Assembly (NCBI GenBank): GCA_021731095.1
Contig: JAKFYA010000236.1
Coordinates: 1 to 36,512, forward strand
Source of the DNA: Acidobacteriota bacterium
GTDB taxonomy: Bacteria > Acidobacteriota > Vicinamibacteria > Vicinamibacterales > UBA2999
DNA length: 36,512 nucleotides
Reading direction: 5' to 3'
A program made the position numbers and the translations under genes. The notes beneath the pieces are model-generated. The model had not been told where the DNA came from, did not search any database, and was given only the letters and a program-made list of their open reading frames with translations. Numbering within the stretch: the first letter of the stretch is position 1; each line of letters opens with the position of its first letter. Shown here piece by piece: positions 3 through 31,643 of the stretch.

Positions 3-1010
3 GAGGCCGAGAGCAACCGCCAGGTCTACGAGTCACTCCTGCAGCGCGAGAAGGAACTCCGCGTCGTCAGTAACAGCCGTGCCAACAACGTTCGGCTCCT
101 CGACCGGGCGCAGGTTCCTGGTGGGCCGTTCACGCCTGACATTCCCCGCGCGTGGATGATGGCGATGCTGTTCGGTCTCGGCCTCGGCGCTGCGGCCGCA
201 TTCGCCATCGACTATCTGGACGATACGGTCAAGACACCGGAAGACGTGACCTGGCGACTGAAGCTGGGGTTCCTTGGCCTCGTTCCCAAGGTACGGGGTG
301 ACAGACACCCGTTGTTGTCAGGCCCGGTGCCCCACGACTTCGGCGAATCTTTCAGAGCACTGCGCACGGCCCTCGTGATGAGCAGTCCTGGCCGCGGCAC
401 GCGAGTCATTGCCGTCACCAGCACGCAGCCGCTCGAGGGCAAGACCACGACGGCCGCCAACCTGGCCCTGGCGCTGGCGATCGGCGGTTCCCGGGTGCTG
501 CTGATCGATGCTGACATGCGCCGGCCAAGCCTGCACAAGGCCCTGCGCATGCCCAACGACAAGGGCCTGTCGCACCTCCTGACCGGCCAGGCGAAGATGC
601 GCGAGGTGGTCCACCGCTCCTCGGACCCGAACCTGCTGGTCATCACCGCGGGCGCCACCCCGCCCAATCCGTCGGAGCTGCTCGCCTCGGACGGCATGCG
701 CGGGTTCATCCAGCAGTTGTCGGTTGGTCCCTTCGACTGGGTGATCATCGACACGCCACCGGTGCTGGCCGTCACGGATTCGGTGATCCTGGCACCACTG
801 GTCAACAGCATGATCTACGTCATCGGCTCCGAGATGACACGCTGGAGACTCGCCGAGCGTGCACTGGCCACGCTTCAGGGTGGCAACCCCAAGTCGATCA
901 ATGCGGTCCTGAACCGGGTGGACTTCGATCGCAACCGCTATTACTACACCCGGTACTACGGCCAGAACTTCAAGAGCTACTACGCTGAGAGCAAGTCGGC
1001 GGCAAGCTAG
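3..1010 (+). CDS. Polysaccharide biosynthesis tyrosine autokinase (BY-kinase/Wzc-like), 5' end truncated by the window edge
   Basis: Open frame runs in from position 3 (EAESNRQVYESLLQREKELRVVSNSRANNVRLLDRAQVPGGPFTPDIPRAW...). GNVR/Wzz-like segment followed by Walker A' (STQPLEGKTTTAANLALALA), VLLIDADMRRP and a Tyr-rich C-terminus (RNRYYYTRYYGQNFKSYYAES). Confidence 0.92.
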   Translation, partial: EAESNRQVYESLLQREKELRVVSNSRANNVRLLDRAQVPGGPFTPDIPRAWMMAMLFGLGLGAAAAFAIDYLDDTVKTPEDVTWRLKLGFLGLVPKVRGDRHPLLSGPVPHDFGESFRALRTALVMSSPGRGTRVIAVTSTQPLEGKTTTAANLALALAIGGSRVLLIDADMRRPSLHKALRMPNDKGLSHLLTGQAKMREVVHRSSDPNLLVITAGATPPNPSELLASDGMRGFIQQLSVGPFDWVIIDTPPVLAVTDSVILAPLVNSMIYVIGSEMTRWRLAERALATLQGGNPKSINAVLNRVDFDRNRYYYTRYYGQNFKSYYAESKSAAS

Positions 1011-1050
1011 TTCGCGCAGCCTGACCCTCAGGGCGTCCCTGGCCGCCGGC

Positions 1051-2394
1051 GTGCCGATTCTGGCACTGGCCGCGCTGGGTGGTGCGTACTCCTCCTCGGT
1101 GCTCCCCCTCCTGGCGGCGGCCGCTGTCCTCTTCTTCGCAGGCGGCGGTGCCATCGCTTCCACCCGGGAGACCCGCCTCCTCGACGTCGCCCTCGTGCTG
1201 CTGGTTGTGGCCATGGGCCTGCAGATCCTTCCCCTCCCCTGGTCGTTCATCTCGTCGCTTTCGCCTCGCACGTTCGAGGTCATGGCCTCGCTGACGATGC
1301 TTGATCCGTCAGCCCCGGGTACGCTGAGCATCCGACCCGCCGTCAGTCGCGAGACCCTGATCTCGGCACTCTCTGTGGTGCTGGTGTTCTGGGGAGCGCG
1401 TGGGGTCTTTGACAACGGTGGCCTGCGGCCGGCGGTCAGGCTGCTGTCCTGGGCCGGCCTGGTCGCCGCGCTGGTCGGTCTGGCCCAGCGCGCCACCTCG
1501 CCCATGTTGCTGCTCTGGACCTGGAAGCCGCTGGACCCTGGCGGCAGACCATTCGGCCCATTCGTCAACAGGAATCACTTCGCCTTCTGGTTGCTGCTGG
1601 CGGGAGCTGTGGCGGCGGGCGCCGCCATTTCCCACATCCACGCGCATGGCCTGCTGCGTCGGCGCGCGCTGCGCGACCGGTTCGTGGACCTGCTCGCCGA
1701 CGGTACGGGCGTGATGCTCCTGGGGTCGGCCGCGCTCATGTGGCTGACACTGATTGCCTCAACCTCCAGGGGCGCCATTCTCGGCATGGCCGTGACCTGC
1801 CTGATTGCGCTGGTCATGGCGGGCCGGCGCATCCATTCACGCGCGGCCTTCCGGACCATGATCGTCCTGGTCGTGGCCCTGCTGTCCTGGGGGGTCTGGG
1901 CCAACATTCAGGCGCTGGCCAGCCGGCTGGATCTGAACAGTGGAGACGTCCCGCGCGTTGCCGTCTGGACAGACACCCTGCCGGTCATCTCGGCATTCGC
2001 AGTGACAGGAACTGGCGCCGGCACCTTCGCCGACGCGATGGTCCGCTTCCAGCAACACGAACGTCGCGTGCTGTTCAGCGAGGCTCAGAGCGAGTATCTG
2101 CAGTTGATGGCAGAAGGCGGGCTGCTGCTGGCAGTTCCGGTGCTGGTCGCCCTGCTGGCCTGGTTGCGGCTGTCTCTGATGCGCCTGAAAGCCAGCAGTC
2201 CCGGCTCGACCTGGATCAGACTGGGCGCGCTGGCAGGGCTGTCTGGAGCCGCCGTGCAGTGCCTCTGGGATTCGGCGCTGCGCATGCCGGCCAACGCGAT
2301 GCTGGTGGCCCTGCTCGCGGCCATCGCCGTCCACCAGCGCACGGATGGCGCCGGTTCAGCTGAGGGAAACGGGCGCGGCCCCGAACTCCACTGA
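1051..2394 (+). CDS. O-antigen ligase/polymerase family membrane protein
   Basis: Multi-TM hydrophobic protein; FGPFVNRNHFAFWLLLAGAVAAG resembles the Wzy_C/O-antigen ligase family motif; late conserved block GTGAGTFADAMVRFQ...EAQSEYLQLMAEGG. GTG start. Confidence 0.82.
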   Translation: MPILALAALGGAYSSSVLPLLAAAAVLFFAGGGAIASTRETRLLDVALVLLVVAMGLQILPLPWSFISSLSPRTFEVMASLTMLDPSAPGTLSIRPAVSRETLISALSVVLVFWGARGVFDNGGLRPAVRLLSWAGLVAALVGLAQRATSPMLLLWTWKPLDPGGRPFGPFVNRNHFAFWLLLAGAVAAGAAISHIHAHGLLRRRALRDRFVDLLADGTGVMLLGSAALMWLTLIASTSRGAILGMAVTCLIALVMAGRRIHSRAAFRTMIVLVVALLSWGVWANIQALASRLDLNSGDVPRVAVWTDTLPVISAFAVTGTGAGTFADAMVRFQQHERRVLFSEAQSEYLQLMAEGGLLLAVPVLVALLAWLRLSLMRLKASSPGSTWIRLGALAGLSGAAVQCLWDSALRMPANAMLVALLAAIAVHQRTDGAGSAEGNGRGPELH

Positions 2395-3816
2395 GGCACA
2401 GGCCTGATAGAAGTCTGCCGGGATGCCGCGCGCCGGGCAGAACCGGTCCAGGAACCACGTCACCCGCTCGGCCAGCGCCGCTCCGGCTGGCCATGTCGGC
2501 ACCTGCTCCAGCCACGCGTCAAACACCTCTGACGGCCGTACGCCCTTCTCGCGACAGAGCATCCGGAAGGTCTTGCGATCGCCGATCTCCCGGAGGGCCG
2601 CTTCCAGTCTGAACCCATAGGCCACCTCATCTGGCGACATGGACAGATGGGACTCCACGAAGTAGGGCGGCTCGTGACTGAAACGCAGTCCCATCGCCTC
2701 CGCCTTGCGCCAGAGCTCGGTGCCTGGCAGGACCATCAGGGGAAACACGGCCAGTTCTGGCGGGTCCAGCGTCACGGCAAAGTCGAGCGAGCGGTGGAAC
2801 GAGGCGACGGTCTCTCCTGGAAGTCCATAGATCAGCTGGAGTTCGAAGGCGAGGCCATGCGCCTTCAGGAAGCCGATGCCATCGAGAAACTTCTGCATCT
2901 TCAGGCGGCGTTCGACCGTCGCCAGCACGTCCGCGTCCGTCGTCTGCAGGCCGACTTCCAGAAACGACACGTTGGCCTCGCGCATCAGGGCGGCAAGTTC
3001 GTCATCGATGAACTCGGCCCACACCTCCGCATGCACGGCAATGCGGCGGGGGTTGTGCGCGGCAATGAGCCGGCAAATCGCCTTCGCCCGGTCGGCGTAG
3101 AGATTGAACACCGGGTCCATGAGGTACAGCTCGTCGATATCGCGTTGCAGCCAGAACAGGATCTCGCGCTCCACGCGCGCCAGATCGAACCGCCGGTTCC
3201 GGACCGACAGGTCCTTGTTGTAGAAGCAGAAGTTGCAGCGGAACACGCATCCGCGTTGCGTCTCGATGCACACCACGCGACCAGGCCGGTCAGCATAGGC
3301 GTCGGTATGCGGGGACGGCAGCTCGTTGATGTCCCGCAGGAGTGGGGCCTCAGCATTCTCGATGATGCGGTCGGCCTGGCGATACGCGATGCCAGCCACC
3401 TCGTCGAGTGTGCGTCCGTCCCGCGCGCAGGCCACGACCTCCGCGAACGGCAGCTCGCCCTCACTGCACACCACCACGTCGACGAACGGGTTCGCGGTGA
3501 GCACGGCGGCCGCCACGGGTCCCACCTCAGGCCCGCCAAGGACCAGCAGCACATCGGGCCGAGCCGCCCGGATCAATCTGGCCGCGGCCATCAAGGTCCG
3601 CACATTCCAGACATAGCAGGACAGGCCCACCACGGCCGGCCCGGTAGACAGGATGCGGGCAGCGATGACCTCAGGTGCCGCCTCCTGGTCGAACTCCGCC
3701 AGGTCAATCTCACTGAGGGCATGCCCCGCTCGCTCCACGAGATAGGCCCTGAGGTACAGCAGCGCCAGCGGTATGAAGGACGGGTTCTTGTGAACGGTCG
3801 CCAGGCAGATCTTCAC
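2356..3816 (-). CDS. B12-binding-domain radical SAM protein (candidate RiPP tailoring enzyme)
   Basis: N-terminal cobalamin-binding-like fold (VVGLSCYVWNVRTL...LLVLGGPEVGPV), radical SAM Cx3Cx2C motif CVFRCNFC. GTG start at 3816 (VKICLATVHKNPSF) overlaps the upstream stop (GTGA); the longer track ORF to 3939 is probably over-extended. Confidence 0.85.
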   Translation of the reverse strand: MKICLATVHKNPSFIPLALLYLRAYLVERAGHALSEIDLAEFDQEAAPEVIAARILSTGPAVVGLSCYVWNVRTLMAAARLIRAARPDVLLVLGGPEVGPVAAAVLTANPFVDVVVCSEGELPFAEVVACARDGRTLDEVAGIAYRQADRIIENAEAPLLRDINELPSPHTDAYADRPGRVVCIETQRGCVFRCNFCFYNKDLSVRNRRFDLARVEREILFWLQRDIDELYLMDPVFNLYADRAKAICRLIAAHNPRRIAVHAEVWAEFIDDELAALMREANVSFLEVGLQTTDADVLATVERRLKMQKFLDGIGFLKAHGLAFELQLIYGLPGETVASFHRSLDFAVTLDPPELAVFPLMVLPGTELWRKAEAMGLRFSHEPPYFVESHLSMSPDEVAYGFRLEAALREIGDRKTFRMLCREKGVRPSEVFDAWLEQVPTWPAGAALAERVTWFLDRFCPARGIPADFYQACASVEFGAAPVSLS

Positions 3817-4796
3817 AGGCCGTTTCCCTCGAGACCGATCCCGTGCGCGGACGGCTCGGCTCCCCAGAAGGTGGACTGGTCCGTGGCCGCATGGCGAAGG
3901 CCACCCTGGGCATCCTCGATGCTGACCCGCCACCGCCAATGGATGCTGTCAAACCCGGTCATCTGCAGGCGGACGACATCCCCTGTCCCGACCGGGACAG
4001 CCGCAGGTAGCGGAAAGAAACCCTGCCGGTACTGCGTGCTGTTGTCAGACGGGCTGTTGCCGATGACGATGCCGTCTTCAAGGGTCGCCGAGAACCAGAT
4101 AGCCACCCCGTGCAACGAGCCGGCCCGTTCCATCGCCCACCGCACCTCCGCGTCGAATCCGTACCGGGCAAGCGCGTCGAGCCTGAATGTGGCCACCGCC
4201 ACAGGGCCGGCGAGCGACTCCGCCGGTGCCAACCAGACGGGATACCAGTTGTGGGTAGCCATGCCGCGGAAGCAGGACATGTCAACGCCTTCTCGCGGCG
4301 CATCCCAGCAGGTCACCGCGTCCGCATGCAGGCGCGCGGACTCGACCGGCGCTGCGTGGAGAACCACCAGGTCCGGCATGACCCGCCCGCCCGGGTTGAG
4401 AAAGCGCGTCACGGCGTCGCTGACGCACCGGAGGCCGTCCTTCTGAAGTCCGCAACAGTCGTACGTGTCCGTGACGATAAGGTCCACAGGCTCTGGTAGT
4501 GTGACCTGATCGGACGCCCCCTGGACCAGCACGACACGGTCTGCCACACCGTTCGCCTCGGCCAGCCGACGCACGAGGCCTGCCATGGGATGCGCCTCGA
4601 CCGCATAGACACGCCTGGCGCCTGCGCGCGCCGCCAGGACCGACAACACGCCACTCCCCGCCCCAAGGTCGAGCACGACCATGCCAGGCACGACAGCACT
4701 GGCCAGGGCTGTCGCGTAGCGCGTCAGTCGCTCACCGGTGCCGGCGAGGAGAAACCGCTGCTGCTGGAGAAACTCCGCCGACTCGGGGAATTGCAT
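3813..4796 (-). CDS. PRMT-like class I SAM-dependent methyltransferase (candidate RiPP tailoring enzyme)
   Basis: Motif I VVLDLGAGSGVLSVLAARAGARRVYAVEAHP resembles protein arginine methyltransferases; followed by VDLIVTDTYDCCGL and LNPGGRVMPD. Confidence 0.78.
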   Translation of the reverse strand: MQFPESAEFLQQQRFLLAGTGERLTRYATALASAVVPGMVVLDLGAGSGVLSVLAARAGARRVYAVEAHPMAGLVRRLAEANGVADRVVLVQGASDQVTLPEPVDLIVTDTYDCCGLQKDGLRCVSDAVTRFLNPGGRVMPDLVVLHAAPVESARLHADAVTCWDAPREGVDMSCFRGMATHNWYPVWLAPAESLAGPVAVATFRLDALARYGFDAEVRWAMERAGSLHGVAIWFSATLEDGIVIGNSPSDNSTQYRQGFFPLPAAVPVGTGDVVRLQMTGFDSIHWRWRVSIEDAQGGLRHAATDQSTFWGAEPSAHGIGLEGNGL

Positions 4797-4808: not shown

Positions 4809-5435
4809 CTACAGGCCGTCGCGAAGGATGTCGAGAAAGGCGGGCTCGGACCGGAACCACCCTACGAAGGCCAGTTTCTCGACGGCGCCCGCGATGGGCG
4901 TGACCTGATGCTCAAGGGACTCATCGATACGGAACAGGAGTGCATCTCCTTCCCCGGTGTTGGCCACGTCATCAAGCACGGATCCAGACATCGCACTTCG
5001 CAGGCGGAACACGCCGCCCTCGTACGGGTGGTCTCCCAGATTGATGCTCATGCCGATCAAGCGGTGGTCCACGGCATCGTTGTGCCAGGACACATGGTGC
5101 GCGCCGCCCGGCAACATCCGGTACACCCGTCCCGTGAAGCAGCCAATGGCGCCGCAACCGGTGAGGTTCTGGATGCCGGCATAGACGACAGGGTCGTTCA
5201 CGAGAAAATGCAGGAGACTCACGGTGCCGTCGGCCTCGAGACACTGCTCGGTTCCGAGCCCCTCATGGTCCCGCTCGAGGAAGGTCCCCTGGTCCAGTCG
5301 CTGACGTATCGTCAGGCACAAGTCTGGCGACAGCACACCAGGTACCACCGCGCAGTTCGTGCGGGCAAACTGGTCGCGAACGCTGGACAGCTCATCAACA
5401 GGCCAGAACAGCCGAGACGTCAACGGCCCGGTCAT
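4809..5435 (-). CDS. 2OG-Fe(II)-dependent oxygenase, copy 2
   Basis: HxD motif (SWHNDAVDH) plus distal His (LEHQ) and Lys 11 residues later. ATG at 5435 lies 2 nt after the stop of the upstream paralogue; extension of the ORF to 5528 is unlikely to be coding. Confidence 0.82.
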   Translation of the reverse strand: MTGPLTSRLFWPVDELSSVRDQFARTNCAVVPGVLSPDLCLTIRQRLDQGTFLERDHEGLGTEQCLEADGTVSLLHFLVNDPVVYAGIQNLTGCGAIGCFTGRVYRMLPGGAHHVSWHNDAVDHRLIGMSINLGDHPYEGGVFRLRSAMSGSVLDDVANTGEGDALLFRIDESLEHQVTPIAGAVEKLAFVGWFRSEPAFLDILRDGL

Positions 5436-5437
5436 TG

Positions 5438-6118
5438 TCAAACCCCCGCCCTGGCGCGAGCCAGGCCGACTTCCTCGGACCCAAACTCTTCGAGCAGTGA
5501 GACGAGAGACAGATCCGATACGAACCACCCTGCGAAGGTGGTACGCGGGACAGTGCCTGTGACCTCCGTGGCCCGATGCTCAAGGCCAGAGGCAATGCGG
5601 AACAGGACCGCATCTCCAAGGCCGGTATTCGCGATATCACACAGCAATCGCTGTCGCGGATCATCCAACAACTGGAAGTGCCCGCCTTCGTAGATGTCGA
5701 CGCTGAGGTTGAGGCTCACGCCAATGCGGCGCCCCTGCACGTTGTCCGAGTGCCACGAATCAAAGTGTCCGGCTCCCGGGACAAACCTGAACACACGCCC
5801 ACGAAAGCCTGACAGCGGCTCACAGCCGGTCAGTTCCTCGACGAGACGCAGCAACGCCGGGTCGTTGAAGGCGAAGTGCAGCAGGCTCAGGGCCGGATTC
5901 GGCATCATGGCGTGATCCGCCGCGATGTCGTGATGCTTCTCGTCAAAGAACGCCGACTCCGTCACATGCCTGAGCGCAAACGCCAACAGGTCGTCAGACA
6001 GCACCTGGCGAAGGTGCACGTAACGGTGTTCCGAAAACTGTGCTGACAGCGTGCGTCGTTCAGAGTCCGGCAACGGCGCAGCCAGGCCGTGTGGTGTCAG
6101 TTGCAGCATGGGGGGCAA
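5438..6118 (-). CDS. 2OG-Fe(II)-dependent oxygenase, copy 1
   Basis: HxD motif (DSWHSDNV) plus distal His (LEHR) and Arg 11 residues later; YEGGHFQL and ANTGLGDAVLFRI blocks shared with the downstream copy. Start could be 6118 or 6109. Confidence 0.83.
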   Translation of the reverse strand: MPPMLQLTPHGLAAPLPDSERRTLSAQFSEHRYVHLRQVLSDDLLAFALRHVTESAFFDEKHHDIAADHAMMPNPALSLLHFAFNDPALLRLVEELTGCEPLSGFRGRVFRFVPGAGHFDSWHSDNVQGRRIGVSLNLSVDIYEGGHFQLLDDPRQRLLCDIANTGLGDAVLFRIASGLEHRATEVTGTVPRTTFAGWFVSDLSLVSLLEEFGSEEVGLARARAGV

Positions 6119-7116
6119 GTAGACAGGTCGGACAGGACTGCGTCACGCACCGTCGCAAGGAGGGGAAGCCGTCGAGGATAGGACAACCGCCTGACCGGTA
6201 TGCTCCCCGCCAGGTTCGTGACAAAGGCAAACTGCCGGGACAGACGTTCTGCGGTGGCCACGCGCCCATTGAAGGTATTGGCAATCAGCGCCAGGCACGC
6301 CTGGCGCAATGGCAAGTGGCGGATCCGAACCTGCGCATGGGCTTGCGCACGAGCCTCTGAACGACGCGCTTCGCCGATGACATAAATGGCCCGAAGCGGT
6401 ACAGCCGTCAGCGCCTGCTCACCATCCACCATGGGCATGGCCAGCTTGGGGGCCAGCAAGGGCATCGTGATGCCGGCCGGACGCCCCTGTCGCAATCGGG
6501 TCGCCATGCGGCGCATGAGCTTGATGCGTGGTGGCCCCAGGTGGGCCATCAGGGCTGTACCCTGGCGGGTGACGACCAGCTGGTCATCAGTGACCAGGTG
6601 ATACCCCGCCTGCACGAACGCAGCAGCCAGGCTGGATTTGCCGCGCCCTGATGGACCGAGGAACGCCACGCCCTGCCCGTTGATGGACACGACGCTTGCA
6701 TGAAGCGGTTCGAGACCCTGCTGGACCAAGGCGTAAGAGAGTGCGGGTCCGAGCATAAGGGCTTCGAACAGTTCCAGACCTGTCCGTCCCCCACGACGCC
6801 CAATGATGCGCGCGCCATCCCCGGTGACCAGGAACTCGATGGAGCGCCCCCAACGGAGATAGGACCCGCCATCATCAAGGGCGGCCCGTTCGAACCAGGA
6901 GGAGTGACGGGTGCGCGGCAGGAGGGCCGCAGAGGCAAACAGGCCATCATGGACAGATGTCGTCCCATCTTCAAGGGAGACGTCCCAGGACGGGGCGTAT
7001 GCGGATGACACGGGAGCAAACGGCAGGCGCCACGCGCTCGACAGGCGAACTGAAAAGAGATCGTATAGGTAGCGAGGCCCCTGGCCTGTGCCTCCCACCG
7101 CTGCGACCGGGGACAT
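6097..7116 (-). CDS. HPr kinase/phosphorylase-like (HprK-related) kinase of the lasso-peptide cluster type
   Basis: P-loop GPSGRGKSSLAAAF preceded by LHASVVSINGQGVAFLG, then GYHLVTDDQLVV, typical of HprK-related kinases. Start overlaps the precursor stop (TGATG). Confidence 0.85.
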   Translation of the reverse strand: MSPVAAVGGTGQGPRYLYDLFSVRLSSAWRLPFAPVSSAYAPSWDVSLEDGTTSVHDGLFASAALLPRTRHSSWFERAALDDGGSYLRWGRSIEFLVTGDGARIIGRRGGRTGLELFEALMLGPALSYALVQQGLEPLHASVVSINGQGVAFLGPSGRGKSSLAAAFVQAGYHLVTDDQLVVTRQGTALMAHLGPPRIKLMRRMATRLRQGRPAGITMPLLAPKLAMPMVDGEQALTAVPLRAIYVIGEARRSEARAQAHAQVRIRHLPLRQACLALIANTFNGRVATAERLSRQFAFVTNLAGSIPVRRLSYPRRLPLLATVRDAVLSDLSTCPPCCN

Positions 7117-7280
7117 CAGGACTTGGTGGTCTTCCGGATCCCGTCGCTCTTCTTGCCGCCCTTTGCCAGCGCCAGATGGCGCAGGTCTCCGTAGACCGTC
7201 AGCTTCGGCGTCCTGTAGGCCTTGCGCGACGTCTCGCCCTGGTCTCTCGATTCTGAATCAGACGATGACACGTTCTTCAT
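7116..7280 (-). CDS. Lasso-peptide precursor (54 aa): MKNVSSSDSESRDQGETSRKAYRTPKLTVYGDLRHLALAKGGKKSDGIRKTTKS
   Basis: Translated by hand from the reverse complement; below the 60-aa cutoff of the supplied track. Leader motif YRTPKLTVYGDL matches YxxPxLxxYGxL; Asp is a possible ring acceptor; AGGAG Shine-Dalgarno 8 nt upstream (7289-7293); lies between a lasso cyclase (ATGA overlap) and an HprK-like kinase (TGATG overlap). Confidence 0.88.
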   Translation of the reverse strand: MKNVSSSDSESRDQGETSRKAYRTPKLTVYGDLRHLALAKGGKKSDGIRKTTKS

Positions 7281-9217
7281 GACCTGCTCTCCTGCCTGCT
7301 AGGTGAACCGCGCCCGACTGTCGACATCGGACCAAAGAACTGCTGCAACCAGACTTCCAGCGCCAGCACATCCGTGAGTCCCCGGCTCGCGTCGAACGTG
7401 TCGTTCGCCAGTGCCGCATGGGCCTCACGCAGGGCCCGGTCCGCTCCGGCCCGGACATAGCCTCGCTGCACCGCTTCGCCCGTCGCCGCCAGCCGCGAGA
7501 CGATCCGATTATAGTCGCGGGACACACCGTCATTCACCAGCGACGTGAAGCTGACTTTGGTGCGCCTGGACGCAATCGCCTCTGGCAGCACACCACGCAG
7601 ACTTTCCCGGAGCAGCGCCTTGGGCACCCCGCCAGCGCACAGCACGTCACCGGGAATAGCCATCAGGAAGGCGACCAGGTCCCGGTCCAGGAACGGGAAC
7701 GCGTGCTCGAGTCCTTCGATAGCCCCGGCCTTGTTGTGCCACTCCAGGCAGAACACGGCGTACCGGGACCTGGCCTCCCGGTAGAGACTGGCGCCGTGGG
7801 CCGTGAATCCGGCCGGCACCCGGACAGGCGGGCGCTCGGCGCTCCGGCGAAACGCGTCGGTGTACCAGCCTCGGACATCGCGCCGTGCCGCCAGACGCTG
7901 ACGCGCGCGGCGAAGGCGGCGCAACACCGCCATCGGCAGGTGTCGCACGACCAGCCCTCTCAGGAGTCGCGTGGTGAAGTAGGAGGCATCCGTGACGCTC
8001 AGCCACTCACCAAAGCCCCGCGCCTGCCGCCAGGCCTCGCGCCAGGCGCCCTGTTCGACCAGGTCCAGCAGATAACCATCATCTGCCAGGAACTGGTCGC
8101 CCCAGTCGCCCGACAGCAACACCCGGACGCCCTTGGACCTCACAAACCGGTTGAACGCCTGGTCGCTGGTCCACTCCATATCGAGGGATGGCACCTCGAC
8201 GTGCCAGACCCCCCGGTCCACCTCATCGACCATGCCCAACTGCGGATGCGGGAAGCGATGGGACTGGAGGCCGGTAGCGACCTCGACCGCTCTGAGAAAC
8301 GCTTCCTCGTCAGCCTTCGACCCTGGTGGCGGCGTATAGGTGACGCCAACCGGGGACTGGGCATGGCCGCGCCCCTGGTGGCGCAGGTGCTCCGCCACGC
8401 AGAAGATCGAGGACGAGTCCACGCCACCACTGAGCGACACGCCGACCGGCGCTGCGCTGCGCAGGCGACGCGACACGGCCTGCTCAAAATGTTCGCGAAA
8501 GGCCTCGGCGTACGCGCCGGGCGACGCAAGCCTGATGCGTGCGCCGGGATCGAAGTCCCAATACCGGCGTGTCCGTGCCTCGCGGCCGCGCACCACGACC
8601 TGATGGCCTGGCAACACGCTGAAGACCTGGTCGAACACTGTCAGGCCCTGCGTGTCCTCGGACATCAGGGCATTGAAGTAGAAGTCTGCGATGCATGCGT
8701 CGCACGGTGCGACGTGCGCCTCCGGGTGTGCCAGCAGGGCTTTCACTTCGGTGCCGAACAGTAGGTGCGTCGGCCCCTGCTGGTAGTAGAGGGGTCGTAC
8801 TCCCATGGCATCGCGAGCAAGGCAGAGCATGCGTGTCGCGGTCTGGTAGGCCGCAAGGGCGAAGTCGCCCAGGAGGTAGTCGGGAGCCGCCTCGCCCCAT
8901 CGCGCGTAGGCCGACAGCGCCAGGTTCTCGTCTGGCGTGTCCGCGCGAAGATGGTGGTCGCCCAGCCTCGCGAGCAGGTCGTCACGGTTGTCGAGTCGGC
9001 CATCAAAGGCGATGACCCAGCGATCGTCCCGGCAGACCTGGGCCAACGCTGGCGCCTCAGCGTCCCCGGGAGCCCAGTCGCGTACGGCACACCCGAACGA
9101 CGCATCCCGGAAATGCCGTTCGACGCCACGGTGAGCCATGGCCGCAGACATCGCCCGCAGTTCCGGTGCCCCGGCCAGACGTTCGTCGAAATTGAGGACG
9201 CCGCAGATGCCGCTCAC
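7277..9217 (-). CDS. Asparagine-synthetase-like lasso-peptide macrolactam synthetase (C protein)
   Basis: N-terminal glutaminase-like domain SGICGVLNFDERLAG...MAHRGVERHF; ATP-binding VGVSLSGGVDSSSIFCVAEHL; AFPFLDRDLVAFLMAIP; adjacent to PqqD-like and B2-like genes. GTG start at 9217 preferred over the track ATG at 9373. Confidence 0.88.
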   Translation of the reverse strand: MSGICGVLNFDERLAGAPELRAMSAAMAHRGVERHFRDASFGCAVRDWAPGDAEAPALAQVCRDDRWVIAFDGRLDNRDDLLARLGDHHLRADTPDENLALSAYARWGEAAPDYLLGDFALAAYQTATRMLCLARDAMGVRPLYYQQGPTHLLFGTEVKALLAHPEAHVAPCDACIADFYFNALMSEDTQGLTVFDQVFSVLPGHQVVVRGREARTRRYWDFDPGARIRLASPGAYAEAFREHFEQAVSRRLRSAAPVGVSLSGGVDSSSIFCVAEHLRHQGRGHAQSPVGVTYTPPPGSKADEEAFLRAVEVATGLQSHRFPHPQLGMVDEVDRGVWHVEVPSLDMEWTSDQAFNRFVRSKGVRVLLSGDWGDQFLADDGYLLDLVEQGAWREAWRQARGFGEWLSVTDASYFTTRLLRGLVVRHLPMAVLRRLRRARQRLAARRDVRGWYTDAFRRSAERPPVRVPAGFTAHGASLYREARSRYAVFCLEWHNKAGAIEGLEHAFPFLDRDLVAFLMAIPGDVLCAGGVPKALLRESLRGVLPEAIASRRTKVSFTSLVNDGVSRDYNRIVSRLAATGEAVQRGYVRAGADRALREAHAALANDTFDASRGLTDVLALEVWLQQFFGPMSTVGRGSPSRQESRS

Positions 9218-9232
9218 AGGTAGACTGATCCT

Positions 9233-9532
9233 ATGACGAAAGTAACCCTGTCCGATGCGGTCAGGCCGGGGGCCAACGTCCTGTTCCGCGAGCTTGAAGG
9301 CGAAGGCATTCTCTTGAGCCTCGAGAGCGGAAAGTACTTCGGCCTCGACGCGGTCGGCACGCGGATCTGGCAACTGCTCGGCGCCGGTCCGTCACTCACC
9401 GGCGTCTGCGAGACGCTCGCCGCGGAATTCGATGTGGAGCGCGCCACCATCGAGGCCGACCTGCTGGCCCTGGTCGCGGAACTCTCGTCCCACGGACTCG
9501 TGCTGGTGGCGGAGCACGCCCCGTCGGCATGA
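9233..9532 (+). CDS. PqqD-like RiPP recognition element (lasso B1)
   Basis: 99 aa; LLSLESGKYFGLDAVGTRIWQLL...CETLAAEFDVERATIEADLLALVAELSSHGLV is the characteristic PqqD pattern. Confidence 0.9.
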   Translation: MTKVTLSDAVRPGANVLFRELEGEGILLSLESGKYFGLDAVGTRIWQLLGAGPSLTGVCETLAAEFDVERATIEADLLALVAELSSHGLVLVAEHAPSA

Positions 9533-9993
9533 TGGCCACCGGCGAGGCGTGGCTCGAACGCGTCGCCTGGGTTCGACAGGAGTGGCCGCTGATCGGCGAG
9601 GCGATGCTGGCCGCACTGGTGGTGGAGACGGGCCTCCGCGCCACCTCGCATCCCCGCCTGTGGCACTGGGCCGGGGTTGTCCCTCGCGACATGGCCTCCC
9701 GGCCAGACCCGGCGCTGCTCTGGGCCATCCTCCGCGCCAGCTACTGGGCATGCCTGCTGCTGCCGGTGCGTGGAACCTGCCTCCGTGAAAGCCTGGTGGC
9801 CGCGCGCCTGCTGTCGCGCCGCGGTCACCCCGTCACCGTGCAGGTGGGCGTCCGCAAGGCCGGTCCCCGTCTGGACTCCCATGCCTGGCTCGAAGATGGC
9901 GATGGACGCGCGCTCACCGATCCCCTTGCGGGGTACGCCCCTCTGATCGCCGACACGCATGACCGAACAGCTCTGCCGGATCCTGCGCGGTAA
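9529..9993 (+). CDS. Lasso-peptide leader protease (B2, transglutaminase-like)
   Basis: Cys-His-Asp arrangement: RGTCLRESLVAARLL...DSHAWLEDGDGRALTDP. ATGA overlap with the B1 gene. Confidence 0.9.
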   Translation: MMATGEAWLERVAWVRQEWPLIGEAMLAALVVETGLRATSHPRLWHWAGVVPRDMASRPDPALLWAILRASYWACLLLPVRGTCLRESLVAARLLSRRGHPVTVQVGVRKAGPRLDSHAWLEDGDGRALTDPLAGYAPLIADTHDRTALPDPAR

Positions 9994-11110
9994 CCCGGTC
10001 GACTGGCCACCAGACGCCGCCGGTGCCGAGACCTTGCAGCGGGAGGCCTATGAGCATGGCGTCCATACCCTGGTCGCGGCACGGCTGTCGAATCCGTCGT
10101 ATGCCGACTGCCCGATCTGGGTCCGGCAACCGTTCGCGCGTGAACGCGTGGACGAGGCCGCTGAAGAGCAACTGGTACGCCAGTCGATCCGGTCAGTCAT
10201 CGCCGCGTGCGCCAGTGCGGGCCTGCACCCGCTCATCTTCAAGGGTGCCGCCCTCGCCTTCACCCACTATGACGACCCGAGCGACCGTCCCTATGTGGAT
10301 GTCGACCTTCTCGTCCGACCGGGCGAGGCGCGCCTGGCGGCACAGGTGCTCGAATCGCTGGGCTACCAGGCCGCCGTCAGCGTGACCGGCGCGCTGCTGG
10401 CGGATGCCCCGGATGCGACCACCATCGATCGGTATGCGCCCAGCTCGCAGGTCCCGTTCACGAAGCGTGATGCCCGGGGAACGCCGCTCGAGATCGACCT
10501 GCACTGGCGCCCCACAATTCCCCAGGTGTTTGCCCAGGTGTTCGACCTGGATGCGTTGCACGCCGACTCGGTCGCCGTGCCGGCCCTGGGTCCGCAGGCG
10601 CGCGCGTTTGGACCCGTTCATGCGCTGGTGCTGGCCTGCCTGCATCGCCTCGCCCACCACCACGGCAGCGACCGGCTGATCTGGCTGTACGACCTGCACC
10701 TGCTGGGGTCACGTCTCACGACGGGTCAGGTCACAGCGCTACTCGAACTGGCGCGTGCGCATCAGGTGGCCGGGGTCTGCCTGGATGGACTGACCCTGGC
10801 CAGGCAGGCCTTCCAGAGCCCGTTCCCGGACGCACTCATCGAAGGGCTCCGCGAGGCGGCCGCTGCCAGTGACGAGCCGTCCGCCATGTATCTGCATCAT
10901 CAGGTTCGCCAGATGGACGTGCTGCGCGCAGACCTCGCGGCCCAGCCCAACCTCTCCGCGCGCATCCGCCTGTTGCGCGAACACCTCTTTCCACCGCCTG
11001 CCTATCTGCGCCAGCGTTACGGCGCACGCGCGTCCCTCTGGCTGCCCTGGCTGTATGTCCGGCGTGCGGTGTCCGGTGCACGCCGGTGGATGACCTCGCC
11101 ACGCCCCTGA
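9959..11110 (+). CDS. Nucleotidyltransferase-family protein (NTP_transf_5-like, lasso-cluster associated)
   Basis: LIFKGAALAFTHYDDPSDRPYVDVDLLV (KG..L....Y..p..R...DiDlLv pattern) and PLEIDLHWRP; overlaps the end of B2. Confidence 0.8.
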   Translation: MTEQLCRILRGNPVDWPPDAAGAETLQREAYEHGVHTLVAARLSNPSYADCPIWVRQPFARERVDEAAEEQLVRQSIRSVIAACASAGLHPLIFKGAALAFTHYDDPSDRPYVDVDLLVRPGEARLAAQVLESLGYQAAVSVTGALLADAPDATTIDRYAPSSQVPFTKRDARGTPLEIDLHWRPTIPQVFAQVFDLDALHADSVAVPALGPQARAFGPVHALVLACLHRLAHHHGSDRLIWLYDLHLLGSRLTTGQVTALLELARAHQVAGVCLDGLTLARQAFQSPFPDALIEGLREAAAASDEPSAMYLHHQVRQMDVLRADLAAQPNLSARIRLLREHLFPPPAYLRQRYGARASLWLPWLYVRRAVSGARRWMTSPRP

Positions 11111-11184: not shown

Positions 11185-12345
11185 TCAGCTCAGCATGCGC
11201 CTGAAGAGCAGGGTTCGCGCCGGCTGGTGGCGGAACAACGCCAGAATCAGATCCCGATGGCGATTGAAGCGCGCCGTCTGTCGCACGATCGGCATGATGC
11301 CGTTGGTATTCGCCAGCCTGAAGAGGGCATCCATTTCGCCGTCACTGAGCTTCTGCGCCAGCATGCGCAGCGCCAGCTGCGTCCGGAACTCGGGAATCAG
11401 TTCCTTCCGCCAGCCCGCTTCATACACAGACAGGGCGGACGCATCCAGCCGGTCCCGGTGCAGCGCGTCGCGCAACACCTCGGCGGCCATCGCACCCGTC
11501 GTCATGCTGTAGTAGATGCCGCCCCCTGTGGTTGGCTTGACCAGCCCTGCGGCGTCCCCGATGGCGACCACACGATCGGCATAGGTCCGGCGGATCGCCC
11601 CGAGCGGCAACAGTCTGCGGCGCGGCGATGCCGCGATCGTGCCTGCCACGCCCCAGGACGGGCCGATTCTCTCCATCAACCGGCGAAACGGGCCGGCGGC
11701 GTCGCCGTCGCACATCAGGCCGATGCGTACGTGCGGTCCGTCGGGTCGCACCGTCGGCACAGCCCAGGCAAACCCCTGCGGGGCGACATCCAGACCGAAG
11801 TAGACCTCGACCTCGCCACTGCGACCCGCGGGCACTTCCATCTGGGCCGATGAGAGATACACCGACGGCAGACCCATGCCGAGCTGGCGCTGGAAGCTGT
11901 AATTGACCCCGCAGGCGAGCACGACCGCACGTCCCACGACCGGAGCCTGCCCCTCGATCCCGACCTCCACGGAGTGCTCGCCGTTCACCAGGCCCGTGGC
12001 GCGGGCTCCCCGGATGAGGGCGGCACCTGCGGCAACAGCTCTGGTGGCCAGCATCCCGTCGAACCGGACGCGGTCCACCACCACGGCTTCCAGGCGGTCG
12101 GGAGTCCACGAGAGCTCAAGCCCTCCGGGCGAATGAAATCGGACCGCCGGCAAGGGATTGAGCACGGCATCGCGCGGAAGCCCGAGCTCCTCGAACACCT
12201 CATCTCCCAGGATGCCGGTGCAATGCGGAGGCTGGCCTATCTCGGCGTGTTCCTCGAGGACAGCCACATCAAAGCCGTCACGCGCCAGCTTCGCGGCTGC
12301 GTGCAGGCCTCCCGGGCCGCCACCGATGATCACGACATCATGCAT
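11185..12345 (-). CDS. FAD-dependent oxidoreductase, geranylgeranyl reductase family
   Basis: MHDVVIIGGGPGGLHAAAKLARDGFDVAVLEE (Rossmann FAD motif), VYFGLDVAPQGFAWAVPT, VVAIGDAAGLVKPTTGGGIYYSM. Confidence 0.85.
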   Translation of the reverse strand: MHDVVIIGGGPGGLHAAAKLARDGFDVAVLEEHAEIGQPPHCTGILGDEVFEELGLPRDAVLNPLPAVRFHSPGGLELSWTPDRLEAVVVDRVRFDGMLATRAVAAGAALIRGARATGLVNGEHSVEVGIEGQAPVVGRAVVLACGVNYSFQRQLGMGLPSVYLSSAQMEVPAGRSGEVEVYFGLDVAPQGFAWAVPTVRPDGPHVRIGLMCDGDAAGPFRRLMERIGPSWGVAGTIAASPRRRLLPLGAIRRTYADRVVAIGDAAGLVKPTTGGGIYYSMTTGAMAAEVLRDALHRDRLDASALSVYEAGWRKELIPEFRTQLALRMLAQKLSDGEMDALFRLANTNGIMPIVRQTARFNRHRDLILALFRHQPARTLLFRRMLS

Positions 12346-12377: not shown

Positions 12378-12977
12378 TCACACCTTCGGCCCCGGGTGTT
12401 CCCATCGGCCACGGGCACTGATCCAGAACGACAGCGCAATGAGACGGACATCCAGCCAGAAGCCGGCACGCCGGCAGTAGAGCGCGTCGAAACGGAACTT
12501 CTGCGGTCGCGGCAGGTCACGCCGCGCATAGACCTGGGCCAACCCGGTCAGCCCCGGACGCACGGCGTGTCGCGCCACGTAGCCGGGAATCTCCTCCAGA
12601 CGCACGAAGCGTCCATCGCCACGTGCCTCGATTTCGCCCACCGCCAGGGGGCGAGGGCCGACGAAGCTCATGTCGCCAATGAAGATGTTCCAGAGCTGAG
12701 GCAGCTCATCAAGCGCCATGGCGCGCAACAGGCGACCCACACGGGTGATGCGCTGGTCATTGGCCACCACCTGCCTGGCAGGTTCGACTGACGCCGCCAC
12801 GAACATCGACCGGAACTTGTAGGCGGTGAATGGCCGTCCGCCACGACCGACTCGCGGCTGGGTGAAGAACACCGGGCCCCCATCCTCCAGCCGGATCGCC
12901 AGGGCGACCAGCAGCCACACCGGTGCGGACAGAACGAGCCCGAGGCCAGACAGACACAGGTCGAACAGGCGTTTCAT
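12378..12977 (-). CDS. Undecaprenyl-phosphate sugar phosphotransferase (initiating bacterial sugar transferase)
   Basis: MKRLFDLCLSGLGLVLSAPVWLLVALAIRLEDGGPVFFTQPRVGRGG...YKFRSM...DELPQLWNIFIGDMSFVGPRP...RPGLTGLAQV. Confidence 0.95.
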   Translation of the reverse strand: MKRLFDLCLSGLGLVLSAPVWLLVALAIRLEDGGPVFFTQPRVGRGGRPFTAYKFRSMFVAASVEPARQVVANDQRITRVGRLLRAMALDELPQLWNIFIGDMSFVGPRPLAVGEIEARGDGRFVRLEEIPGYVARHAVRPGLTGLAQVYARRDLPRPQKFRFDALYCRRAGFWLDVRLIALSFWISARGRWEHPGPKV

Positions 12978-12987
12978 GGGTTGCCCG

Positions 12988-14202
12988 CTACCGCACGCGT
13001 CCCGCGATCAGTCTGCGAAACAATGACGCGTAGGCTTCAACCTGCCGAGGACGGTCGAACCGCAGCCCCGCCTCTCGTGCTCGCGCCCCCATGGCGCGCA
13101 CCAGGTCTGGCGCGGCACGCAGGTCCCTGATGCGCGTGGCCAGGGCCACGCCGTCGCCCGGTGGCACCACCACGCCGCAGCCGTGTTCGCGGGCCAGCGT
13201 CACCAGTTCGCAGTCGTCCTCGACCGCGGCCACAAACGGCCGACCTGCGGCCAGGATGCTGTAGACCTTGCTCGGCACGATGTAGCCCGCCAGGCCAGGC
13301 CGCAGCGACACCAGGAAGAGATCGGCGGCGGCATACGACAGCGCCATGTCCGCACGCGGTTGATAGGGCAGGAACATCACGTGCGAGAGCCCTCGTGCAG
13401 CGGCCTGCGCCTCAAGCGACGCGCGACGCGCACCATCGCCGACAAACACGAAGCGGATGTCGGGGTCGTCCCGCAACTCGGCCGCCGCATCCAGCACGAC
13501 GTCCAGGTTCTGCGACAGGCCGATATTGCCGGCGTGCATGACCACGAACGCCTGCTGCAGGCCATGGGCGCGTCTGAAGGCGTTGTCCGGCGGACCGGGT
13601 GACAGCGCCGCGCAGTCGGCCCAGTTGTCGATGACGACGATCCGGGACGGCTCGGCGCCTTTGCCCTCCACGAGACGCCGCTTCATCGTGTCGCCAAGCG
13701 CCACGACCGCATCCGCCGTGCGGACCAGGAAGCGTCCGACCTGCTGAAGCACGGCATTGACCGTGGGGCTGCGGAAGTCCTCGAGCAGGACGGCCACTTC
13801 AGGAAAGACGTCCTGGCAGAGAAACACGAACGGCGCCCGCATGCGTCGCGCCGCACACCACCCGGCCAGACCGATGATTGGCGGGTCTGTCATGGCCATC
13901 ACGACATCGGCCCGAGGAACCCGGAGAGCCGCCCACAGCGCAGACACGAAGTACGACAGGTAGTTCATGGCCCGACCGGCAAAGCGGCGCGGGTCATGCA
14001 CGGTGCCGGCGGCACGCACGATTCGCACGCCGTTCCGCACCTCCTCAGCCGGCAGCGGGCCAGCGTGGCGGAGCGGGTACCCAGTGACTACCGTGACCTG
14101 GCAACCGTGGTGTGCCACCAGATCCTCGGCCAGTTCGGTGAGCAGCTGCCCTGTCGCGCCGAAATCCGGCCAGTACGACCGGTTGAAGATGCAGACCTTC
14201 AC
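12988..14202 (-). CDS. Glycosyltransferase family 4 (WbuB-like)
   Basis: FNRSYWPDFGATGQLLTELAEDL...; C-terminal PSKVYSILAAGRPFVAAVEDDCELV typical of WbuB-like GT4. Confidence 0.88.
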   Translation of the reverse strand: MKVCIFNRSYWPDFGATGQLLTELAEDLVAHHGCQVTVVTGYPLRHAGPLPAEEVRNGVRIVRAAGTVHDPRRFAGRAMNYLSYFVSALWAALRVPRADVVMAMTDPPIIGLAGWCAARRMRAPFVFLCQDVFPEVAVLLEDFRSPTVNAVLQQVGRFLVRTADAVVALGDTMKRRLVEGKGAEPSRIVVIDNWADCAALSPGPPDNAFRRAHGLQQAFVVMHAGNIGLSQNLDVVLDAAAELRDDPDIRFVFVGDGARRASLEAQAAARGLSHVMFLPYQPRADMALSYAAADLFLVSLRPGLAGYIVPSKVYSILAAGRPFVAAVEDDCELVTLAREHGCGVVVPPGDGVALATRIRDLRAAPDLVRAMGARAREAGLRFDRPRQVEAYASLFRRLIAGRVR

Positions 14203-15944
14203 CGCTTCTCGAGCACGTGACTGCCCATCACCAGCACATCCATGTCCGTTCGGAGGAAGCAGTCGAGCGCCTGCGCCGGCAGATGCACGATCGGCTCGTT
14301 CTCGTTGAACGACGTGTTCAGCAGAATCGGAACCCCCGTCCGCTCGCGAAAGGCATTGATGAGCGCCCAGTACCGGGCATTGGTCGCACGACTGACCGTC
14401 TGGAGTCGTCCTGACCCATCCACATGTGTGACGGCCGGTATCTCCGCCCGACGCTCAGGCCGCACGGGATACACCTGAATCATGAACGGGTCAGGCACGG
14501 CGCCCACGAAGTAATCGTCAAGGGCGTCTTCGGCGATGGAGGGCGCAAAGGGCCTGAACTTCTCACGAAACTTGATACGCGTGTTGATGATGTCACGCAT
14601 GTCTGCGCGCCTCGGGTCGGCCAGGATGCTCCGGTTGCCAAGTGCGCGCGCTCCCCACTCCATCCGTCCCTGAAACCAGCCGACCACATTCCCGGCGGCA
14701 ATCCGATCCGCCGTCCAGGCACACAGGGTCTCCTCGTCCGGAATCACGGAGTGAGTGGCCCGTGCCAGCACATCCGCGTGACGCGCGTCGATGGCGTCGG
14801 CAATCTCGGCATCGGTGAAGGCGGGTCCCCAGTAGCCGTGCTCCATGACACACGCCCGGGCGCCACCGCCGGCATGCCAGGTGTGCAGCGCGGCTCCCAG
14901 CGCAGTGCCGTTGTCGCCGGAGGCGGGCTGCACGAAGATCTCCCGAAACGGTGTCTGCTCGCGAATCTTGCCGTTCGCCACCGAGTTCATGGCGCACCCG
15001 CCCGCGAGGCACAGACGGTCGAGCTTCGTGCGGGCGTGCAGCGCGCGCAGCACAGCAAACGCCGCTTCCTCGTAGACGGCCTGCAGCGACGCCGCCAGAT
15101 CTTCATGTCTCGACTCGAGCGGATCGCCCGGTCGCCTGGCTGGACCCAGGAGCCGCTCCATCTTCGGCGTGAAGACCGTGCCAATTGTCGGTGAGCCCTC
15201 ATCCCAGGTCATCGACACGCCGCCTGACCAGTGACTGAAGTAGGCCAGGTCAAGCGACACGTCCCCATCTCCCGACACCCGCACCAGTTGCCGCAATTCC
15301 CGGACAAAGCGCGGCGTCCCGTAGGGAGCCAGGCCCATGACCTTGAACTCGTCGCCGTAGCCGGGAAAGCCCAGGAACTGCGTGACCGCCAGATAGAGCA
15401 GCCCAAGCGAGTGCGGGAAGTAGACACGGCGATCGACCGTCAGCGACGTGCCGCGGCCGACACCCGTCGAGGTGCTGACAAAATCGCCGAATCCGTCGAT
15501 GGCACAGACCGCCGCCTCGTCGAACGGGCTCGCGAAGAAACTGCTCGCCAGATGCGCCGGGTGGTGCTCGACCGGACGAAACCGCGCCCGCACATGGGCG
15601 GGGTCAAGACCCAGCGACTGGGCGAGTCGGTCCGGCACCTGCGAGACGCTGGCCGCATTCCGTCCACGGTCCACGAGCATCCGGGGGTGTGGCAGTCGCC
15701 GGAGCGCAAAGAGCGCCTTTCGCCAGAGGTGCGCACGCGGGTCTCTGCTGATGGCGAAGAGGTCCACGTCGGCGGCCGTCGCACCAGCCATCTGCAGGCA
15801 CACCTGCATGGACTGGTCGGGAAAGCCCGCCCAGTGCTTGACCCGGCGAAAGCGCTCTTCCTCGACCGCTGCGACCAGTCGCCCGTTGTCGAGCAGCGCC
15901 GCCGCGACGTCGCCGTGATAGGCGTTGAGGCCCATGATCAGCAC
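14199..15944 (-). CDS. Carbamoyltransferase (NodU/CmcH/TobZ family)
   Basis: VEEERFRRVKHWAGFP; HHPAHLASSFFASPFDEAAVCAIDGFGD; LAGGCAMNSVANGKI; QGRMEWGARALGNRSILADPR; LNTSFNENEPIV. Confidence 0.94.
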   Translation of the reverse strand: MLIMGLNAYHGDVAAALLDNGRLVAAVEEERFRRVKHWAGFPDQSMQVCLQMAGATAADVDLFAISRDPRAHLWRKALFALRRLPHPRMLVDRGRNAASVSQVPDRLAQSLGLDPAHVRARFRPVEHHPAHLASSFFASPFDEAAVCAIDGFGDFVSTSTGVGRGTSLTVDRRVYFPHSLGLLYLAVTQFLGFPGYGDEFKVMGLAPYGTPRFVRELRQLVRVSGDGDVSLDLAYFSHWSGGVSMTWDEGSPTIGTVFTPKMERLLGPARRPGDPLESRHEDLAASLQAVYEEAAFAVLRALHARTKLDRLCLAGGCAMNSVANGKIREQTPFREIFVQPASGDNGTALGAALHTWHAGGGARACVMEHGYWGPAFTDAEIADAIDARHADVLARATHSVIPDEETLCAWTADRIAAGNVVGWFQGRMEWGARALGNRSILADPRRADMRDIINTRIKFREKFRPFAPSIAEDALDDYFVGAVPDPFMIQVYPVRPERRAEIPAVTHVDGSGRLQTVSRATNARYWALINAFRERTGVPILLNTSFNENEPIVHLPAQALDCFLRTDMDVLVMGSHVLEKR

Positions 15945-17044
15945 AGCTTGCCTACCTCATCCAGGCCGAGCGCCTGACGGACGCATGCCTGGGTCTGCTC
16001 TGGAGAAAACCGGTCCCTGATGGTGGCCATGGCCTCGGCCGACAGCCGGGCACGCCAGTGCGCGTCCGTCAGCAGGCGAATGATGGCCGCTGCCAGTCGA
16101 GCCCCGCCGTCCGTCTCCGGATCCACAATCACGCCGTCCACGCCGTGGGTGATGATCTCCTCGGGGGCGCCGGGTCGCGCCACGCACGGCGTGCCAGCCG
16201 CCATCGCTTCGAGATACACCAGTCCAAATCCCTCGCCGGCGCTGGGCATCACGAACGCAGAGGCGTCGCGATAGAGCGCCGCCAGCGTCGGCGCATCCAC
16301 GCGCCCGGTGAAGACGACGGCACCGGTCAGTCCTGCCCCACGGGCCACGGCCTCCAGCCTGGCCCGATCATCCCCGTCACCCGCAATGACGAGCCGGGCA
16401 TCAGCCACAGACTCGCGCACCCGAGGCCAGATGTCGAGCAGCGCGTCGTGGCCTTTGTACCGTTCCGCCGCGGACATCCGCCCCACAATCAGTGCGTACG
16501 GGCCGTCAATCGCCCGGTCACCCGCGGGCACGACCGGGGGCACACCGGGATGGCAGACCCGCACAGCCGCCGTTGCCAGCTCCGGATGTGTGGCGTGAAA
16601 CCGATCCACCGTGTGTCGCGAGATGGCAATGCGACACCAGGCCCGCTCCAGCGCCGCCCGCTCGCGCCGCCGCAGTGGCTTCCAGACTTCGATGCCGTAC
16701 ATCACGGCGGCCAGCCGCGCGCCACGGCGAAGCAGCGGCAGCGCCACGGCCAGCAGATGCACATGGAGACCGACCACCAGGGTCCTGGCACCGACCGCTG
16801 CGCACGTCAGGCCCCACCATGCGAATCTGACGCGACTGCCAGCCGCCGCTCGAAAGCCGATGGCCGGGTCCAACCCCTCGGGCCGCACCGCATCGGTGAG
16901 CGACCAGACCTCGAGGGCCCCTCCTGTCGCACGCATGGCATCCGCAAGCAGGGCCACATACTGCCGCGACACCTCGGCAATGCCGTCTGAGCCGGCGAGC
17001 CCTGGCGTGAGCACAATCACCCGACTCGTGGCCACTGCCTCCAT
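15938..17044 (-). CDS. Glycosyltransferase family 4
   Basis: IVGRMSAAERYKGHDALLDIWP...PSAGEGFGLVYLEAMAAGTPCVA. Confidence 0.88.
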   Translation of the reverse strand: MEAVATSRVIVLTPGLAGSDGIAEVSRQYVALLADAMRATGGALEVWSLTDAVRPEGLDPAIGFRAAAGSRVRFAWWGLTCAAVGARTLVVGLHVHLLAVALPLLRRGARLAAVMYGIEVWKPLRRRERAALERAWCRIAISRHTVDRFHATHPELATAAVRVCHPGVPPVVPAGDRAIDGPYALIVGRMSAAERYKGHDALLDIWPRVRESVADARLVIAGDGDDRARLEAVARGAGLTGAVVFTGRVDAPTLAALYRDASAFVMPSAGEGFGLVYLEAMAAGTPCVARPGAPEEIITHGVDGVIVDPETDGGARLAAAIIRLLTDAHWRARLSAEAMATIRDRFSPEQTQACVRQALGLDEVGKLC

Positions 17045-23367: not shown

Positions 23368-23368
23368 G

Positions 23369-25669: not shown

Positions 25670-26565
25670 GAGACGGCCAGCCGATGCGCCAGTTCCGCGC
25701 CGCCGACACTGTCAAGCATCAGAAACCGCCGCTGTTCGTACCGGCGCCGGCTCGGGCAGGTGAACGCCTCACCCACCGCAAACCCGTCGCTGAAGTACCG
25801 GGCCACGCATGCCGCGGTCTCGTCCGTGAAGTCGAGACCCGGCCGACCGTTCGGATAGGCGAACAGTTCGGGTGCGACACCCAGCCACTCGGACAGCATG
25901 GTCCGGCTGCCCGCGATCTGGCGCTCCTGCACGTCGGCCGGTGCGGCAGCGAGGATCGGATGGTCCACGGTGTGGGCCCCGATTTCGACGAGCGGATGTG
26001 AAGCAAGGGCCTGCAGTTGCGCCACCGACAATGGGGCGAGCGGATGTGCCGCATCAGCGGACATCGCCGCTGCGTCCACGGCACGACGCCACGCGTCGTA
26101 CGGCTGGCCCTTGAGTTGGTCCACGCGACCGGAACCGGCCTGCATCTCCACCGCGTCGTACCAGAAGTGCTCGCGCCGCGCAATGGGACCGGTGCACACG
26201 AACACCACGGCCGGAATCGCGTACTGCTCGAGCACGGGAATGCCATGCGTCAGCACGCCGGCATACCCATCATCGAAGGTCACCAGAACCGCGCGCGGAG
26301 GCGCCGTCTCCGCCCCGGCGGCAATGCGGAGGAAGCGTGCGCCATCAATGGGCGTGCAATGCGAGCGCAGCACGGCGCAATGTGCCGCCAGTGTGGACGC
26401 ACGCACGTGCAGTGGCCCACCAGGCGCGCCGGCATCCCGTGTCTCATCCGCCAGCACTCCGTGATAGGCGAGGACCGCTACTCCCGGGAAGGGTGCGTCG
26501 AGCAGGCGCCTCCGGTAGACGCCCAGTCCGGCCAGCGACCGCTTCAGGATGTGTCCAGCGCGCAT
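25648..26565 (-). CDS. Polysaccharide deacetylase family protein (NodB-like)
   Basis: VLVTFDDGYAGVLTHGIPVLEQYAIPAVVFVCTGPI; EIGAHTVDHPILA. ATG at 26565 forms TGATG with the upstream stop; the track ORF to 26871 is over-extended. Confidence 0.9.
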   Translation of the reverse strand: MRAGHILKRSLAGLGVYRRRLLDAPFPGVAVLAYHGVLADETRDAGAPGGPLHVRASTLAAHCAVLRSHCTPIDGARFLRIAAGAETAPPRAVLVTFDDGYAGVLTHGIPVLEQYAIPAVVFVCTGPIARREHFWYDAVEMQAGSGRVDQLKGQPYDAWRRAVDAAAMSADAAHPLAPLSVAQLQALASHPLVEIGAHTVDHPILAAAPADVQERQIAGSRTMLSEWLGVAPELFAYPNGRPGLDFTDETAACVARYFSDGFAVGEAFTCPSRRRYEQRRFLMLDSVGGAELAHRLAVSWPRLGP

Positions 26566-28594: not shown

Positions 28595-28618
28595 GGGGGA
28601 GCCGTGGCCTCCGTCGTC

Positions 28619-30758: not shown

Positions 30759-30762
30759 AGTG

Positions 30763-31638: not shown

Positions 31639-31643
31639 CTGTG

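Follow-up and report, generated by a model that had tools for sequence, protein, structure and literature searches.

A lasso peptide gene cluster with its own HprK-like kinase in an Acidobacteriota bacterium: an internal tail threonine as candidate phosphate acceptor

Gene content of the locus

The DNA analysed in this work (the window) is a stretch of 36,512 nucleotides from an uncultured Acidobacteriota bacterium (contig JAKFYA010000236.1). It contains a lasso precursor gene (A), flanked by the genes of a cyclase (C) and an HprK-like kinase (K), as well as genes for B1, B2 and several probable tailoring enzymes (Table 1). The genes A, B1, B2 and C co-occur, with a YxxPxL leader in the precursor; because of the score of B2, the PqqD-type B1, the Asn-synthase cyclase and the YxxPxLxxxG leader, the locus is, as judged from its sequence, a real lasso cluster with its own kinase. 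The minus-strand genes (C, A, K, the oxygenases, the methyltransferase and the B12-radical-SAM protein) have overlapping or nearly touching ends: the ATG of the precursor, preceded by the ribosome site AGGAGAG, overlaps the stop of the cyclase (ATGA), the stop of the precursor and the start of the kinase overlap by one base (TGATG; ..AAGTCCTGATGTCC..), and the start of the B12-radical-SAM gene overlaps the stop of the PRMT-like methyltransferase gene. The genes of B1, B2 and the NTP_transf_5 protein are divergent from this set and lie on the plus strand.

Several of the accessory genes recur elsewhere. The tandem oxygenases have counterparts in the vicinity of kinases in G006 and G027, a PRMT-like methyltransferase gene adjoins many related kinases in the lasso clusters of the phylum, and a geranylgeranyl-reductase-like FAD gene is also close to the lasso cluster in L080, L088 and L141. 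The cluster is surrounded by an exopolysaccharide locus (window positions 156-2394 and 12378-31728), with genes for an AAA_31 protein, a Wzy_C ligase, a sugar transferase, glycosyltransferases, a carbamoyltransferase, an ABC exporter and Poly_export; in Paracoccus and Azospirillum, too, plasmid-borne relatives adjoin sugar transferases.

Table 1. Features of the lasso cluster, in window coordinates
Feature	Position	Strand	Remarks
B12-binding radical SAM protein (KedN5-like)	2356..3816	-	probable cluster member
PRMT-like SAM methyltransferase	3813..4796	-	
Second 2OG-Fe(II) oxygenase	4809..5435	-	~37% identity to the first
2OG-Fe(II) oxygenase, probable tailoring enzyme	5438..6109	-	overlaps the 3' end of the kinase gene
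HprK-like lasso precursor kinase K (predicted), 339 aa	6097..7116	-	H139, G154-S161 P-loop, D177-D178
Lasso precursor A, 54 aa	7116..7280	-	ORF; leader motif, core by alignment
Codon of Ser54 (core S16, C-terminal)	7119..7121	-	acceptor according to the first-pass annotation; without conservation in the clade
Codon of Thr52 (core T14)	7125..7127	-	clade-conserved hydroxyl, [ST]-[KR]; favoured candidate acceptor
Lasso cyclase C (Asn synthase / GATase)	7277..9217	-	probable GTG start at 9217
B1, PqqD-like leader-binding protein (RRE)	9233..9532	+	profile matches
B2, transglutaminase-like leader peptidase	9529..9993	+	62.2 bits vs curated cut-off 33
NTP_transf_5 nucleotidyltransferase-like protein (compare PsmN)	9959..11110	+	
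FAD-dependent geranylgeranyl-reductase-like protein	11185..12345	-	cluster membership uncertain

The kinase and the precursor

The first-pass annotation had described an HprK-like kinase with an intact P-loop, whose start overlaps the stop of a lasso precursor ending in KTTKS, a pairing as in PadeK and ThcoK. All of these elements were confirmed: the kinase matches Pfam Hpr_kinase_C with 36.3 bits (cut-off 33.3) amid the genes of a lasso cluster, its P-loop reads GPSGRGKSS, and H139, K160, D177 and D178 are all retained and, in our alignments, invariant across its relatives. The corresponding His-Lys-Asp-Asp residues are required in ThcoK and BsfK (PMC9266682, PMC10368454). The AlphaFold model of the kinase (pLDDT 82) matches the structures of HprK/P and PEPCK, and the profile of the kinase family finds HprK in the PDB. 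On the other hand, the score against the HPr kinase model TIGR00679 is 37.8 bits vs a cut-off of 240, and the same genome encodes, on another contig, a separate full HprK/P beside HPr, which together rule out that K is the housekeeping HPr kinase. It likely acts as a lasso-precursor kinase, a function that is predicted here.

The translation of the precursor ORF, MKNVSSSDSESRDQGETSRKAYRTPKLTVYGDLRHLALAKGGKKSDGIRKTTKS, has Ser54 as its last residue. The leader carries the motif Y22-x2-P25-x-L27-x3-G31, and the whole precursor scores 23.3 bits against NF033528 (lasso_cyano), under the cut-off of 33. Alignment with relatives (LTTAKGGPNVD in L032, LTMTKGGNRAD in L080) places the core at A39-S54 (AKGGKKSD-GIRKTTKS) and predicts an 8-residue ring from A39 to D46 (Ala1-Asp8), with D46 (core 8) as the Asp/Glu acceptor at core positions 7-9. 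Position -2 of the leader is Ala37 (7170-7172) and not Thr, while relatives carry Thr or Val. This Ala is unusual and could make the precursor a poor substrate for processing; the I(-2)A substitution in BsfA stopped leader removal, and Ala, Ile or Val at -2 has been predicted in other lasso precursors (PMC10368454). Because such natural exceptions are known, Ala37 is not disqualifying for a lasso peptide cluster. A search for a second precursor in the same genome found none.

Kinase clades and the hydroxyls of their precursors

A B2 gene is present in 79 of the 396 same-phylum genomes that we surveyed; 82 lasso loci were read, 47 of them with a kinase match, and an order-level search and the Methylomirabilota locus L032 were added. 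Among the same-phylum loci, L046 of genome G187 matches the acidobacterial MAG locus L033, which makes Acidobacteriota the probable phylum. Since a contig scan with the kinase alignment yielded only 9 loci, the survey represents one phylum and a few outside loci. Further class-level searches gave no additional full members of the kinase clade of the window, and no precursor was obtained for L152/L172, where the kinase is broken and the contig short. The resulting catalogue, compiled by hand from motif searches and drawn largely from this one phylum, comprises 46 kinase-linked precursors. Their last residue is L in 10 cases, A in 9, P in 7, T in 4 and G in 3, with other residues making up the rest. 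Terminal Ser occurs once, in the window precursor itself. Chance alone would give a share of a few percent, which one Ser-ending precursor among 46 does not exceed, and the terminal Ser looks like a chance resemblance to the precursors of terminal-Ser kinases.

In the kinase tree, the window protein clusters with those of L032, L121, L080, L088, L146, L148 and L171, i.e. eight kinases from two phyla, with a FastTree local support of 1.00 and IQ-TREE values of 60/81; in the IQ-TREE tree, labels close to the root may move with the choice of root. Terminal-Ser controls were provided by kinases of Paenibacillus mendelii (twice), Priestia and Paracoccus, plasmid matches having served only in this role; these four are separated from the window clade by a 100/100 split, in a tree that does not include PadeK, ThcoK and SyanK. 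In the seven nearest relatives, the last residue of the precursor is A, A, P, A or I, or the tail continues into a long C-terminal domain. Such a domain, CFI-box-CTERM-like (CWIAEALYG.., CWIAEALFG..; NF041770, E 2e-6, below the cut-off of that model), is fused behind the tail in L148 (G077 C174), where the precursor comes after the kinase, and in L151/L171 (G464), and is a possible follower domain.

The tails of the clade (GIRKTTKS in the window, then SGGGPKSKSTTGSA, ANVAGPKTRGSGTA, GGSPKTRTTAAP, GSGKPNTRNNFPQA, GATNMSRI, GTPGNTKA.. and PGTGRATKPAP..) all contain, at core positions 14-16, a Ser or Thr followed by Lys or Arg, which in the window is Thr52 (core T14). Among 64 dipeptide classes tried, [ST]-[KR] is the sole one common to all eight. 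Shuffling of the tails gives a chance of ~8e-4 for its presence in 8/8 precursors, or ~4e-8 with the position limit, but both figures are post hoc and overstate the case, since the motif was chosen by eye and the sequences are few and related. The motif is also present in 4 of 16 kinase-less precursors; L114, which has a similar cyclase, fits it as well (..PRTR.., T15), and its contig ends before any kinase. Core position 3, on the other hand, is Gly in the window and is not Ser or Thr in any of the eight precursors, and the ring is devoid of hydroxyls in several of them, L032 and L121 among these. Ring phosphorylation was accordingly rejected as the site common to the clade.

Other clades have other invariant hydroxyls. 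One sister group comprises 12 kinases (11 without a near-duplicate); ring position 5 is Ser or Thr in 11/11 of its precursors (L184, L186, L187, L185, L168, L125, L189 and others), many of which end in Cys-Leu, and L178, with TGGITTKD, exemplifies this type. In a more distant group (L111, L083, L181, L182, L130, L174 and others) all ten precursors have [K/R]-T in the tail near the C-terminus, as in ..MMNKT of L111. Mapped onto the kinase tree, the hydroxyl features require fewer changes than in 4000 label shuffles. This pattern suggests, at the level of sequence, that the acceptor position moves with the kinase clade, and it is in line with the published shift from terminal Ser, the target of PadeK, ThcoK, SyanK and PsmK (PMC9266682, PMC8498205), to core Ser3, which is modified by BsfK (PMC10368454) and LppK (PMC13381572). 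As BsfK and LppK demonstrate, lasso and other RiPP kinases of the HprK-like type can act on residues other than the C-terminal Ser.

The probable phosphate acceptor

We favour the interpretation that K phosphorylates the C-terminal tail of the lasso precursor, with Thr52 rather than Ser54 as the acceptor, and we put the chances of this at about even. Thr52 is preferred because it belongs to the [ST]-[KR] hydroxyl conserved in all eight precursors of the clade, although this motif could serve instead in threading, in recognition by the cyclase, or in the action of another tailoring enzyme. The first-pass annotation, in analogy to ThcoK and PadeK, had proposed Ser54 as the site of (poly)phosphorylation. 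The precursor does end in Ser, the kinase is intact, and four characterised homologues target a terminal Ser (PMC9266682, PMC8498205); the pair K53-S54 is, moreover, compatible with the [K/R]-[T/S] tail of the more distant kinase group. However, the kinase falls outside the terminal-Ser clade, the other members of its own clade lack a terminal Ser, as do all the remaining kinase-linked precursors of the survey, and related RiPP kinases use core Ser3, so that the argument for Ser54 is weak and we consider this site rather unlikely.

Phosphorylation of another core hydroxyl, either Thr51 or the ring residue Ser45, appears improbable. Thr51 is preceded by Lys, a feature of the kinase group with [K/R]-T tails, but [K/R]-T is found in just 3/8 tails of the clade; the invariant Thr/Ser at ring position 5 in the sister clade makes ring acceptors plausible in general, but those members of the window clade that lack ring Ser/Thr argue against Ser45. 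Still less probable, in our view, is that the kinase leaves the peptide unmodified or has a different substrate, for instance HPr or a protein of the polysaccharide pathway: the exopolysaccharide locus does enclose the cluster and the kinase activity is a prediction, yet divergent homologues beside lasso precursors keep the catalytic residues, and for HPr a separate HprK/P is encoded next to its gene, with K scoring far under the cut-off of the HPr kinase models.

Building on the gene content, the catalytic residues, the phylogeny and the tail motif, and on the modelled HprK/PEPCK fold, we propose the following order of events for tail phosphorylation. B1 would bind the YxxPxL leader and present the linear precursor to the kinase, which would add one or more phosphates to a hydroxyl of the C-terminal tail, most likely that of Thr52, followed by Lys53, with Ser54 as the runner-up. 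B2 would cleave after Leu38, and C would close the Ala39-Asp46 ring around the tail to give the predicted threaded product. For the NTP_transf_5 protein, a role in extending the phosphate is possible, as is assumed for PsmN, and further marks could be introduced by the oxygenases, the PRMT-like methyltransferase and the B12-radical-SAM enzyme.

It is tempting to generalize that each clade of HprK-like lasso kinases has its own fixed hydroxyl (the terminal Ser, Ser3 of the core, residue 5 of the ring, [K/R]-T in the tail, or [ST]-[KR] in the tail at core positions 14-16), the window kinase belonging to the last type and placing its phosphate on Thr52; we regard this generalization as tentative, with slightly less than an even chance of being right. 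We found no description of a tail-internal Thr site or of such a clade rule in the literature searched, which comprised papers available without subscription. The usual assumption is that lasso precursor kinases target the terminal Ser, and a clade-dependent site would lead genome mining to mispredict the product. Should the pattern be borne out, the sequence of a kinase could be used to predict its acceptor site, engineering would gain several regiospecific peptide kinases, and the comparison of sites would offer a route to the reason for lasso peptide phosphorylation. The kinase-precursor pairs of L080 and L032, whose precursors lack a terminal Ser, make the clade pattern directly testable.

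Comparison with known systems

The system of the window resembles those of PadeK, ThcoK, SyanK and PsmK in the HprK-like fold, the His-Lys-Asp-Asp catalytic set, the location of the kinase gene beside the lasso precursor, the split B1/B2 and, in some clusters, the presence of an NTP-transferase. However, the terminal-Ser kinases of Firmicutes and Paracoccus form a separate clade (PadeK itself is not in the tree), and, unlike in the PadeK/ThcoK type, the relatives of the window precursor have no terminal Ser and their conserved hydroxyl is internal. BsfK from Bradymonas sediminis, which is aided by B1, and LppK, the kinase of the linear polyphosphorylated peptides, are likewise HprK-like RiPP kinases not tied to the C-terminal Ser, but the core Ser3 that they modify has no counterpart among the precursors of the window clade. 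With canonical HprK/P the kinase shares the P-loop kinase fold, but it has no HPr nearby and is far from the HPr kinase family by score. The pseudomycoidin cluster also combines a kinase (PsmK) with a nucleotidyltransferase-like protein (PsmN), whereas the cluster of the window differs from it by the divergent kinase, the YxxPxL leader and the extra oxygenases and methyltransferase. The pairing of a kinase with a lasso precursor is of a known kind, while the sequences of the relatives suggest a shift of the phosphorylation site to an internal Thr of the tail.
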